The notes below the pieces were generated by a model. That model did no database searches. It had not been told where the DNA came from and was given only the letters and a program-made list of their open reading frames with translations. From a virus, in IMG/VR virus record IMGVR_UViG_3300032668_000073, positions 1 to 35,573 of that record: a stretch of DNA of 35,573 nt, one strand, 5' to 3'. Numbering within the stretch: the stretch's first letter is position 1; each line of letters opens with the position of its first letter. A program made the translations under genes and the position numbers. This document shows positions 25,540-29,462 of the stretch, in pieces.

Positions 25540-25575
25540 ATTAACTAATTATTTTTATCTTGAGGAGATATTATT

Positions 25576-26301
25576 ATGGCTTTGCCAAAGATTGACGTTC
25601 CGGTATATCAGATTGATTTGCCTCTTTCAAAGAAGCATATCAACTTTAGACCATTTTTAGTAAAAGAACAAAAGAATTTACTAATGGCCATGGAAGCAGA
25701 TGATGCTACTACCATTGAGCAAAACATTAGACAAGTTCTTAATAACTGCACAATAACAGAAGGTATTGATATTGATAAACTTCCTATTATTGATGTAGAA
25801 TATTACTTTTTAAACTTACGAGCAAGGTCAGTAGGTGAAATAGTAGAAAACAAATACAAATGTAATAATGAAGTAGATGGTAAACTTTGCGGTAATATCA
25901 TGGATGCTAATATTAATATTCTTGATATTAAAGTTGAAAAGAATGATAACTTCAATGATACGGTACAAATAACAGATACTATTTCTGTGAAGTTAAAACT
26001 TCCTGATTTCTCTGTTGTTAAAGAGGCGACAAAATATGATTCAGCTACCGACATGGCTTTTGATATGATTGCTAAATCAATAGATTATATCTATGATGGC
26101 GAACAGTATTATTATGCACATGAAACTGAACCAAATGAGTTAGTTGATTTTGTTGAACACTTGAATCAAACACAGTTTGAAAAGTTAGAAGCCTTCTTTA
26201 ATAATTTACCTAGATTGAATAAAACAATCAACGTCAAATGTAAAGCTTGTGGTTTTGACCATAAGATTGACGTGGAGGGTCTGGAAAGTTTTTTCGGTTA
26301 A
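25576..26301 (+). CDS. 26: gp26-type baseplate protein / putative tail assembly chaperone
   Basis: 241 residues of the T4_baseplate (gp26) family: INFRPFLVKEQKNLLMAMEA, EYYFLNLRARSVGEIVENKY, VQITDTISVKLKLPDFSVV, IYDGEQYYYAHETEPNELVD. Four cysteines (C96, C105, C222, C225) in two small pairs could bind zinc. A strong ribosome-binding site (GAGGAG) precedes the ATG. The final codons AGT TTT TTC GGT TAA contain the slippery T TTT TTC at 26289-26295, so a fraction of ribosomes may continue in the -1 frame. In T4, gp26 belongs to the hub pathway next to gp51. Position immediately before tape-measure-like genes suggests a tail-assembly-chaperone role. Confidence 0.88.
   Translation: MALPKIDVPVYQIDLPLSKKHINFRPFLVKEQKNLLMAMEADDATTIEQNIRQVLNNCTITEGIDIDKLPIIDVEYYFLNLRARSVGEIVENKYKCNNEVDGKLCGNIMDANINILDIKVEKNDNFNDTVQITDTISVKLKLPDFSVVKEATKYDSATDMAFDMIAKSIDYIYDGEQYYYAHETEPNELVDFVEHLNQTQFEKLEAFFNNLPRLNKTINVKCKACGFDHKIDVEGLESFFG
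26274..26295 (+). promoter_or_regulatory. Putative programmed -1 ribosomal frameshift signal
   Basis: The heptamer T TTT TTC (26289-26295) is in the exact X XXY YYZ phase relative to gp26 (codons TTT TTC). A GGAGGG at 26274-26279 lies 9 nt upstream of the heptamer, the spacing at which a Shine-Dalgarno-like element stimulates -1 shifting in E. coli dnaX. It has no start codon at initiation distance. Slipping leads into an open -1 frame (CGG at 26295-26297) that ends at 26489. Downstream, CGGT/ACCG and the palindrome GTCATGAC could form weak structure. Confidence 0.7.
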
Positions 26302-26489
26302 CATTTCGTCATGACACGCTGAGTAATTACTACCGCACAAACTTTTCATTGATACAGCACCACAAGTATAGTTTGGCGGAAATTGAAAATATGTTACCAT
26401 GGGAACGTGAGATATACGTTTCTATGCTAATACAATACATTGAAGAAGAAAACGAAAAGATTAAACAAAGGAATGCAGCTAAAAAATAA
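26295..26489 (+). CDS. gp51-like domain, -1 frame extension of gp26 (frameshift product 25576-26489)
   Basis: In the -1 frame after the slippery site there are 64 codons before TAA at 26487-26489. The peptide contains RHDTLSNYYRTNFSLIQHHK, then LAEIENMLPWEREIYVSML and a Glu/Lys-rich helix. This resembles the short protein annotated as gp51 (hub assembly) after gp26 in T4-like marine phages; I recall that pattern rather than having searched it. The -1 frame opens only after TGA at 26268-26270 and has no ATG before the MLPWE methionine, so a frameshift giving a 304-residue gp26-gp51 protein is the simplest expression route. TTG or CTG starts are the alternative. The stop overlaps the next ATG (TAATG). 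Confidence 0.75.
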   Translation, partial: RLTFRHDTLSNYYRTNFSLIQHHKYSLAEIENMLPWEREIYVSMLIQYIEEENEKIKQRNAAKK

Positions 26490-27964
26490 TGGCTGGTAAA
26501 AGTTTATCCGAGTTAATTGCACAAAAACTGATATCTGGTATAGATAAGTCAGTTGGTAAACTCTTTCGCTCTAAAAAAGAAGAAAATAAAGAAGACGAAT
26601 CCGTTACTGAAGCTTTAAACATTATTCAAAAAGTTACAGGCGGTAAGAAAGAAGGCAGTTCAACACTATCAGAAGTTATTGCAAGTAAAGCATTAGGTAA
26701 AAAAATACCTAAACAAGTTCCTTCCGAAAAAACAACTTCTGTTGATAAAAAGAAATATATCTCTTTAAAAAAAAGTTCATTATATACAAAGTATACAAGT
26801 TCCGTTTCAAGAGAAATAAAAAGTCAAGACACTTTAGCTGATACACTAACAAGATTATATACATTAATTAAAAAGAATTCTGAAAAAGAAACATTAAGAG
26901 ATGAAACAGAATTAGACTTTAAAAAAGTTATTGAAAAAGAAGAAGAAGATAAACACAAAGAACTTATTAAAGCGTTTTTATCTAAACCGAAAAGAGAAGG
27001 TCGACCAGGTGGTAAACCACCAACAGAGGCAAAAGGTGAAAAAGAAAAACCTGGTGCCAAGCCTACTACAAAACCAACTACAAGACCTACTGCAACAAAA
27101 GCACCTAGTGCTAGACCTTCAGCAAAACCATCAGCCGGAAGACCTAGTGGTCCTAGTGGTGGTATAAGCACAGCAACTAAAGTTGTTGCAGGTGCAGCTG
27201 CCGTAGCATTAGCTGGCGGTGCAGCTGATGTAATTGCAGCTGAAGAAGGACTTCCTAAAAAAGGCAAGGCATATTGGGATCCACCAGGTCAAAAGAATTT
27301 AGTGTCTGTAGGTTATGGCCATCAAATTAAACCAGAAGAATATCAACAAGGTTTTATTCAAGCCGGTAATGATAGAATACCTTTACAAGGCGATAAAGGT
27401 ATTGATACTACATTATCTCCAGACCAAGCAAAAGCACTATTATCAGCAGATTTGCCAAAGTATACTAAAGCTGCACAAGCACCATTAGGAGAATCTTGGA
27501 ATAAACTAACAGATAATCAAAAGTCAGCTCTTACTTCATATGCTTATAATACAGGTAGCACAAAGAGTTTAGTTGAAGTTGGTCTTAAAGATGCTATTGA
27601 TTCTGGCAATATGCAACAAGCATCTGATATTATAAGAAATAAAGGTGTAAGAACAGCTGGTGGACAAGTAAATGCTACTTTAGTTACAAGAAGAGCAAAA
27701 GAGGCAGATTTATTTTTATCTGATGCAAAAGCAACACCATCATCAACAACTGAATCTGTTCCAGCACAATCATCAAAAGGTGTTACTCTTTCATCAGCAT
27801 CAACAACAAATAAAGATTTAAAAGCTGACCAATCTAGTGGTGGTCAAAGTGTCGTAATGGTAAATAATAATAACACAACGATTGCTAGAGGAACAAAAAA
27901 ACAACCTGAAGTAGTTCCCATGCAATCAGATAAAGCACCAATTTTAGAAGCACAATATGGATAA
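26489..27964 (+). CDS. Tape-measure-like tail protein with GH24 lysozyme domain
   Basis: 491 residues. Residues 1-165 are helical and charged, with two [ST]LSExIAxK motifs (5-12, 60-67) and an EEEDKHKELIKAFL helix, all matched in the next gene. Residues 170-225 are a Pro/Lys/Thr/Ser-rich linker, and 228-250 are an Ala/Gly-rich hydrophobic stretch. Residues ~250-412 are a T4-lysozyme-like (GH24) domain: catalytic-type EEG (252-254), YWD with D264, SVGYGH (273-278, Ser where T4 has Thr26), LTDNQKSALTSYAYNTG (340-356) and RRAKEADLF (401-409). The spacing between Glu and Asp is slightly longer than in T4 lysozyme. It probably digests peptidoglycan during DNA entry. Translation is coupled to the gp51-like frame by TAATG. 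Confidence 0.8.
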   Translation: MAGKSLSELIAQKLISGIDKSVGKLFRSKKEENKEDESVTEALNIIQKVTGGKKEGSSTLSEVIASKALGKKIPKQVPSEKTTSVDKKKYISLKKSSLYTKYTSSVSREIKSQDTLADTLTRLYTLIKKNSEKETLRDETELDFKKVIEKEEEDKHKELIKAFLSKPKREGRPGGKPPTEAKGEKEKPGAKPTTKPTTRPTATKAPSARPSAKPSAGRPSGPSGGISTATKVVAGAAAVALAGGAADVIAAEEGLPKKGKAYWDPPGQKNLVSVGYGHQIKPEEYQQGFIQAGNDRIPLQGDKGIDTTLSPDQAKALLSADLPKYTKAAQAPLGESWNKLTDNQKSALTSYAYNTGSTKSLVEVGLKDAIDSGNMQQASDIIRNKGVRTAGGQVNATLVTRRAKEADLFLSDAKATPSSTTESVPAQSSKGVTLSSASTTNKDLKADQSSGGQSVVMVNNNNTTIARGTKKQPEVVPMQSDKAPILEAQYG

Positions 27965-29462
27965 GAAACCAAAAAAATCTAAAGGCGAAAATGCCAACTC
28001 TCTTTCTGAATTAATTGCTAAGAAATTAATATCAACTGTCTCATCTAAATTTTTTGTAAAAGATGAAACAAAAGAGAAGGCTGAAAAGTATAAGAAGAAA
28101 TTTAGTCCAAAAAATATGGCTAAATCTCTTACTAAAGGCAAATCTTTATCTGAATCTATTGCAAGTAAAATATTAGGCGGTGAAAAGAAAGTAACGAAAG
28201 TGGACGGTGTTAAACCTAAAGTGTCTGCTACAAAGATACCGGCTGTAATTAGTCCAGAAACAGAAATAAAAGAAAAAGTAAAAGATAAAAATCCATTAGT
28301 TTTAAATAGAGTTCTTAAATTTCCTTTCGTTAAAAAAGGTGATTCTGCTACAGATGTTATCTCTAAATTATTCTTTCTACTTCAAAAGCAATACGATAAA
28401 AAAGATATTCAATTTGAATTAAATAATGATTTTGAGAAGTCAAAGAAAATGGAGTCTGATAGACGCCATAAAGAATTAGTAAAAGCAATATTAGCAAGTA
28501 GAAGTGGTGGAGCAACTACAGCTGCACCAGAAAAAGAAGAAGGCTTACTTGATAGAATAGGTGGTCTTGCTGGAGGTGCAATGGCAGCTCTAGGTGCAGG
28601 TTCATTATTAAAAGGTGTTAAAGGTGGTGCAAGTCGAGTAGGTAGAGGTGCCGGAAAATTAGTTAAATCGGCAACAAGAGTTGGTAGTAAGGCACTTCGT
28701 GGTGCAAAAGGTGTATTGAAGTTCTTAAATAAAATACCAGGTTTAAGTTTAATTGCCGCTGGTGCAGGTCTTATAATGGATGTTAAACAAGCCATTGATG
28801 ACCATGAAGCAGGTAAGATATCTGAAAAAGACATGAAAAAAGTTGTTGCAGGCGCAGTTGGATCAGCTTTTGGAGGTGTCGGTGGCGCTGAATTAGGAGG
28901 TCTAATTGGTGGTGCTGCAGGTTCGGTAGTACCAGGTTTAGGAACACTGGTAGGTGGTGCAGTAGGTGGAGTGGCAGGTTTCTTTGCAGGCGAATCTTTA
29001 GGTAAAACAATTGGTGAAAAATTATTTGATACCTTTAGTAATACTGATGAAAAATCAATTGATTCTAAATTATCAAATGTATCATCAAAGACTGCCACAC
29101 CTGCTAAACAAGCAACGGCTGCAGCTACACCAACACCGTCAGCACCAGCAACATCAAAAGGCAGTTCATCTGAAGCAACATCATCAGCTAAATCTGCACC
29201 AACAGCAATATCAGGTGGCGGAAGTTCAGCAACACCTATGTCATCTGCTTCCAGTTTAGGTGAGAGAGCAGTAGCCGCAACAAACCAAAATATAGATTCT
29301 CAAATGAGTTCTGGCGGTTCTTCATCACCTGTTGTTATCAATAGATCAACAAATAAAGGTGTTAGTGCTGATCCACCAGATATTATGACAGGCAATATGT
29401 CAGTTCGTAATGATGACATGGCATTTAATAGAGTATTACGAATGAGCGTCAGAGCAGTATAA
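27957..29462 (+). CDS. Tape-measure-like tail protein
   Basis: 501 residues, overlapping the previous gene by 8 nt. The N-terminal ~185 residues are related to that protein: SLSELIAKKLIS (15-26), SLSESIASKILG (63-74), an ISKLFFLLQKQY helix (~135-146) and RRHKELVKAILASR (169-182). Residues 195-360 are rich in Gly/Ala and hydrophobic (GLSLIAAGAGLIMDV at 262-276, several GGAVGGVAG-type repeats at 297-345), as in tape-measure C-terminal regions that enter the host membrane. The last ~140 residues are Ser/Ala/Thr-rich. T4 gp29 is 590 residues. If this is the tape measure, about 500 residues at ~1.5 angstrom each would predict a tail near 75 nm. No direct similarity to gp29 is claimed. Confidence 0.65.
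   Translation: MDKKPKKSKGENANSLSELIAKKLISTVSSKFFVKDETKEKAEKYKKKFSPKNMAKSLTKGKSLSESIASKILGGEKKVTKVDGVKPKVSATKIPAVISPETEIKEKVKDKNPLVLNRVLKFPFVKKGDSATDVISKLFFLLQKQYDKKDIQFELNNDFEKSKKMESDRRHKELVKAILASRSGGATTAAPEKEEGLLDRIGGLAGGAMAALGAGSLLKGVKGGASRVGRGAGKLVKSATRVGSKALRGAKGVLKFLNKIPGLSLIAAGAGLIMDVKQAIDDHEAGKISEKDMKKVVAGAVGSAFGGVGGAELGGLIGGAAGSVVPGLGTLVGGAVGGVAGFFAGESLGKTIGEKLFDTFSNTDEKSIDSKLSNVSSKTATPAKQATAAATPTPSAPATSKGSSSEATSSAKSAPTAISGGGSSATPMSSASSLGERAVAATNQNIDSQMSSGGSSSPVVINRSTNKGVSADPPDIMTGNMSVRNDDMAFNRVLRMSVRAV

Follow-up and report, generated by a model that had tools for sequence, protein, structure and literature searches.

How is a reading frame expressed that lies in the -1 frame of a gene end and has no start codon at its beginning? 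The question is raised by gp26 of a T4-like phage known from an uncultured virus record (IMGVR_UViG_3300032668_000073), whose 35,573 nucleotides constitute the stretch of DNA analyzed here, termed the window. The gp26 open reading frame extends from the ATG at 25576 to the TAA at 26299-26301 and closes with the codons GAA AGT TTT TTC GGT TAA. Its zero-frame codons TTT (26290-92) and TTC (26293-95) lie within a slippery heptamer in X XXY YYZ phase. The -1 frame is open from 26271 to 26486, followed by a TAA stop at 26487-26489, and as a TGA closes this frame at 26268-26270, a slip has to come after that point. Slippage at the heptamer would fuse 240 gp26 residues to 64 residues read from CGG, giving 304. 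The first-pass annotation, which had proposed this frameshift, placed the gp26 end, the heptamer, the GGAGGG before it, the TGA, the 64 codons and the 304-residue product correctly on the sequence. A megablast search of the region against phage records returned no match.

Table 1. Features of the gp26 locus and the genes that follow it
Feature	Positions	Strand	Basis
Shine-Dalgarno sequence of gp26, GAGGAG	25562..25567	+	direct reading
gp26 (TAC-N), short tail assembly chaperone form, 241 aa	25576..26301	+	PF12322, phrog_150, model
TGA closing the -1 frame upstream	26268..26270	+	sequence
GGAGGG, SD-like putative stimulator, 9 nt 5' of heptamer	26274..26279	+	sequence; anti-SD duplex -9.8 kcal/mol
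Slippery heptamer T_TTT_TTC	26289..26295	+	sequence and relatives
TAC-C, -1 frame tail, 64 codons plus TAA	26295..26489	+	phrog_634, pN/pS, hhalign to T4 gp51
Predicted frameshift product TAC-NC (gp26-gp51), 304 aa, junction ESFF/RLTFRHD	25576..26489	+	inferred; colinear with T4 gp51
Next gene, 491 aa, lysozyme domain, tape-measure/hub candidate	26489..27964	+	S-CRM01 counterpart phrog_7, weak tape-measure matches
Paralogue of preceding gene, 501 aa, tape-measure candidate	27957..29462	+	weak tape-measure PHROG match, E=3e-6

To establish how often such a heptamer occurs by chance, rates were taken over 12 genes of the window, 3,498 codon positions in all. An in-phase XXXYYYZ of any kind is found at 0.86% per codon, or 8% per 10-codon overlap, and the in-phase T6 heptamer at 0.06% and 0.6%, respectively. 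Given these rates, a single genome is only suggestive, and conservation among relatives decides the matter. Searches of IMG/VR and phage records yielded 264 readable gp26 ends, and the comparison that the first-pass annotation had suggested shows the heptamer to be almost invariable: TTTTTTC occurs in slippery phase at 254 of the 264 junctions, and at 252 of these the gp26 stop lies exactly one codon further on. Other slippery runs are TTTTTTT (four junctions) and TTTTTTG (one). The heptamer is absent from the remaining five, namely RB32 and L191, which are T4-type phages with a separate gene 51, and L005, L089 and L091. These last three, from Ackermannviridae or similar phages, have TAC-C in the -1 frame where gp26 stops but no heptamer, and TAATG is present in two of them.

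Codon usage at the slip site was followed in sets thinned for redundancy, comprising 40 sequences of the window clade (<97% identity) and 46 P-SSM2-like sequences. Neither TTT TTC nor the T before it varies in either set (40/40 and 46/46), whereas same-amino-acid codon identity for Phe is only 0.69-0.80 overall. Among five-codon spans of gp26 in the window clade, the synonymously frozen GAA AGT TTT TTC ranks first for synonymous constraint, with a summed excess of 1.44 against a mean of -0.02 (sd 0.31) for all spans, these codon nulls taking no account of phylogeny. On this comparison of relatives, the heptamer is not in slippery phase by chance.

The -1 frame was examined for coding. TAC-C matches phrog_634, the gp51 family, with E=7e-31, and its profile is unrelated to that of gp26, as expected. 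The pN/pS ratio of the -1 frame is 0.136 in the window clade and 0.122 in P-SSM2-like phages, whereas the other frames exceed 1; likewise, no stop interrupts it over 55 codons in 83 thinned sequences, with 205-271 stops per group in the other frames. By these measures the -1 frame is coding and under strong purifying selection. Protein conservation in the alignment starts exactly at the slip site (FFR) and not at a later methionine.

One alternative is that TAC-C is translated by itself as a separate short protein, either from a start of its own or by termination-reinitiation where gp26 stops, the T-run being incidental. Several relatives lend themselves to such a reading. A TAATG or TGATG at the gp26 stop provides a -1 frame ATG in S-CRM01, Vibrio R11Z, Rhizobium I34, Stenotrophomonas BUCT608, phiM7, VAP7, K369 and L102-L104, and all 81 P-SSM2-type phages have an in-frame ATG three codons past the heptamer, where the GenBank gp51 starts. 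Reinitiation at TAATG is thus possible in several distant lineages, but it is inapplicable to the window, whose only possible -1 frame starts (TTG 26349, TTG 26373 and ATG 26391/26424) all lie within or after the conserved domain. Nor do close relatives supply the ordinary ATG and Shine-Dalgarno sequence that would have spoken against the frameshift: no ATG, GTG or TTG is found as far as 12 codons beyond the heptamer in 58 of 80 window-clade members, an SD-like start in none of the 80. The first-pass description of a frame with a conserved-looking domain and no ATG at its beginning stands. The FFR residues ahead of any later start are conserved, the heptamer is retained beside TAATG with the exceptions of VAP7 and K369, and T4-type phages carry a fused form. 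Taken together, this makes a separate TAC-C protein improbable. For the window, such a free-standing gp51 is rejected, as the -1 frame lacks a start.

Some observations on these junctions concern annotation and overlap. GenBank annotates TAC-C of P-SSM2 and S-PM2 as a separate gp51 from an internal ATG with no Shine-Dalgarno sequence, and leaves the domain unannotated in S-WAM1 (L003, 2522-2713) and Aeh1 (L004, 3241-3408). The T6 heptamer and a TAATG or TGATG occur in the same -1 frame in L088, L092, L093, L094, L097 and L102-L104, where frameshifting and reinitiation could coexist.

A closer look at T4-type gp51 (249-253 amino acids; RB32 and the IMG/VR records L185-L193) reveals the fused form as one gene. 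PF12322 covers its residues 1-201 and phrog_150 its full length; hhalign relates it to the gp26 profile with E=4e-12 and its C-terminus to the TAC-C profile with E=3.7e-8. The alignments cross the slip point, with T4-type VFKLLVNPDEIFTFYQIN facing FFRLTFRHDTLSNYYRTN of the window. T4 gp51 thus consists of TAC-N-like and TAC-C domains, in frame and colinear with the predicted 304-residue fusion, whose domain order it shares. Unlike the window fusion, it has its own start codon and no frameshift. In RB32 gene 51 lies on the strand opposite to gene 26, so T4 needs no frameshift. On sequence comparison, this natural in-frame equivalent is the strongest evidence that selection maintains the fusion. 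The proposal that gp51 is the T4 equivalent of the -1 frame tail is correct as to the homologous tail domain, but T4 gp51 corresponds to the whole long form and not to the tail domain alone.

The locus belongs to the T4 gene 26/51 family, gp26 by PF12322 (E=1.8e-58) and phrog_150 (E=5e-64) and the tail domain by its homology to gp51. An AlphaFold2 model of gp26 (pLDDT 85.8) was compared by VIA-align with solved structures, the list being drawn from 350,542 chains. Ranked first were RBSTP2171 (3FGX; Z 7.7, 85 residues, 3.4 Å), YqbN (3KLU; Z 7.3, 86 residues, 4.3 Å) and HK97 gp13 (2OB9; Z 7.0, 84 residues, 4.1 Å), followed by a Vibrio PICI-like protein (5IR0; Z 5.0) and then by unrelated entries at 2.8. 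All three top matches are phage tail assembly chaperones (PMC9603447), and the matched part of the model is residues 1-95. As Z values of 7-8 are weak on their own, being reached by some unrelated models, what counts is that chaperones take all of the first three ranks. Foldseek found no significant match for the model (HK97 E about 2), with YqbN and HK97 gp13 ranked first and second. The comparison supports a chaperone-like N-terminal fold for modeled gp26, as in HK97 gp13. Sequence searches of solved structures with the gp26 or TAC-C profiles gave chance matches only. For a model of T4-type gp51, tail assembly chaperones were not among the PDB matches listed by VIA, which excludes nothing; in a viral structure library this model matches gp26 models. 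With the gp26 of a Desulfovibrio phage as bait, IMG/VR yielded no match. Paired Cys motifs of gp26 (KYKCNN...KLCGN and VKCKACGFDHK) resemble zinc-binding sites and are partly lost in cyanophage relatives.

These models bear on a second alternative, in which the frameshift is real and gp26 and gp26-gp51 are structural proteins of the hub rather than chaperones of the tape measure. Public names do say baseplate hub, and genetic studies cited in a review support gp26 in the hub (PMC3004832). The same review, however, lists both proteins in a table as hub assembly chaperones, with gp51 absent from the final particle (PMC3004832). Chaperones rank first for the gp26 fold, the occurrence of short and long frameshift forms within a tail module is the signature of chaperones, and Vladimirov et al., as cited in later papers, independently arrived at the chaperone assignment. 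We consider a structural role in the hub unlikely to be the correct reading, and the earlier identification of gp26 and gp26-gp51 as a chaperone pair appears largely right, given the in-frame TAC-N and TAC-C of T4 gp51 and the three chaperones matched by the gp26 model.

Either of the two genes that follow may be the tape-measure gene. The start of the next gene, at 26489, overlaps the TAC-C stop as TAATG, and this gene and the one after it are paralogous, with 31% identity over 180-182 N-terminal residues (E=8e-12). Weak tape-measure PHROG matches are found for the second gene and for the corresponding genes of R11Z, phiM7 and S-CRM01, in agreement with a chaperone-then-tape-measure order although not proof of it. 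The two paralogues differ in their C-terminal halves, the first having a lysozyme domain and the second a glycine-rich hydrophobic stretch.

Elements that might stimulate slippage vary among lineages. The first-pass annotation had likened the GGAGGG upstream of the heptamer to that of dnaX. The element is present, and its pairing with the anti-SD is strong in the window, but most members of the window's own clade do not retain it, where the GAG codon of GGAGGG is kept in only 6 of 40 thinned relatives. Pairing in this clade is modestly above the synonymous null (-5.9 versus -5.0 kcal/mol, null sd 0.25). In P-SSM2-like cyanophages, which keep the element, it goes far beyond the null (-8.6 versus -5.8 kcal/mol), with GAG used by 43 of 46.

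A dnaX-type downstream stem-loop is lacking in the window and its clade and present in Kyanoviridae relatives. RNA downstream of the heptamer folds no better than shuffles in the window (z +1.7 and -0.2); the clade has no consensus hairpin (median z 0.03; 0/18 in a further hairpin test), and the sole match of an Rfam search is a chance one, below its cut-off. P-SSM2-like phages, on the other hand, all have z < -2, with a stem that starts 5 nt past the heptamer (arms AGTATGGCTCA/TGAGTCATACT). S-PM2-like phages have other stems 4-10 nt past it, the longest of 17 perfect pairs (AAGTTTGTTTTATAATA/TATTATAAAACAAACTT); a third group has GCCCTC/GAGGGC hairpins. Kyanoviridae-type hairpins, 4-10 nt past the heptamer and unrelated in sequence, are carried by L002, L096, L105-L184 and L194-L273. 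As no compensatory changes were seen within the P-SSM2 group hairpin, the case for hairpins rests on unrelated sequences that fold in equivalent positions to an extent exceeding the synonymous-codon null. The z-values for hairpins and SD-like pairing are not probabilities, since the tests treat sequences as independent. On these folding comparisons, the new feature in the relatives is a set of hairpins, differing in sequence, that follow the heptamer closely in marine cyanophages and are lacking in the window clade.

The same elements bear on whether the shift is already present in the mRNA, rather than arising in translation, through RNA polymerase slipping on the T6 run and inserting a base. 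A homopolymer run is present, reaching T7 in some relatives (L092 and L102-L104). T6 is a short run for transcriptional slippage, however, and in nearly all relatives the run is exactly T6 followed by C, in a phase that suits tandem tRNA slippage; the SD-like element before the cyanophage heptamer and the hairpin 4-10 nt after it are features of ribosomal slippage. Transcriptional slippage is accordingly a highly improbable source of the shift. A sequencing error in the T-run, for which the homopolymer alone speaks, or a broken gene has virtually no likelihood left and is already refuted by the relatives, as many independent contigs, including all readable ones of the clade, and the isolates P-SSM2, S-PM2, Aeh1 and others share the arrangement, and the -1 frame is under purifying selection.

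The locus thus very probably encodes the paired tail assembly chaperones of a T4-like phage, made by -1 frameshifting, an explanation drawn from sequence comparison and structural models. As we infer the slippage, its efficiency and the chaperone activity, most ribosomes would end at TAA 26299 and yield the short form. A minority would slip back by one base as the pair of tRNA-Phe occupying the P and A sites moves on U UUU UUC to re-pair with UUU UUU, and would read CGG UUA ACA onward to TAA 26487, making TAC-NC. GGAGGG may assist through pairing with 16S rRNA, as in dnaX. The mixture of short and long forms would coat the tape-measure/hub protein encoded directly downstream and keep it soluble during growth of the tail tube.

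Across lineages, one possible reading, which we consider somewhat less likely than not, is that T4-like phages keep the same heptamer while the elements that set its usage are swapped, the chaperone ratio being the conserved target and the means interchangeable. Such elements might be an SD-like sequence plus unrelated hairpins in marine cyanophages, an SD-like sequence or nothing recognizable in the window clade, a TAATG overlap beside the heptamer in other lineages, and a separate fused gene with no frameshift in T4. For annotation, the implied rule is that the 'gp51' annotated in hundreds of genomes of cyanophages and related phages probably represents the tail of a frameshift product rather than a separate gene. 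The findings also support T4 genes 26 and 51, long named as hub proteins, as tail assembly chaperones, and offer a natural series, from frameshift through TAATG overlap to a separate fused gene, in which to study how a fixed protein ratio is maintained.

An abstract by Vladimirov and colleagues reportedly names genes 26 and 51 and describes frameshifting as conserved in several T4-like groups. The first-pass annotation had inferred a unification of T4 genes 26 and 51 with the lambda and P2 systems; this was anticipated by Vladimirov, Gautam and Davidson 2022 (Virology 566:9-15), a study reported to have identified the tail chaperones of T4-like phages and cited in PMC10885494, PMC12846349 and PMC9603447. 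In citing that study, PMC10885494 states that some T4-like phages have one short and one fused gene, and PMC12846349 credits it with poly-T -1 frameshift signals in T4-like TAC-N genes. The short/long logic is common to those chaperones and to the window locus. As the general idea is already published, the window represents a new uncultured member, and the gain here is confirmation, breadth and lineage-specific stimulators.

Among known systems, E. coli dnaX has an SD-like sequence ~10 nt before its -1 heptamer, A AAA AAG, followed by a strong hairpin; in the window the upstream element is present, but the heptamer differs and a dnaX-type hairpin is lacking. HK97 gp13, YqbN and RBSTP2171 resemble predicted gp26 over residues 1-95 (Z 7.0-7.7), with 4-13% identity and ~145 further residues in gp26. 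Lambda gpG and gpGT, a short form and a -1 frameshifted long form encoded directly upstream of the tape-measure gene, share the short/long plan, whereas their heptamer (G GGA AAG) differs and gp26 is larger, with extra domains and Cys motifs. The E and E+E' proteins of P2, a contractile-tail phage, are smaller, but their -1 frameshift takes place, as proposed for the window, on a T6 heptamer, T TTT TTG.
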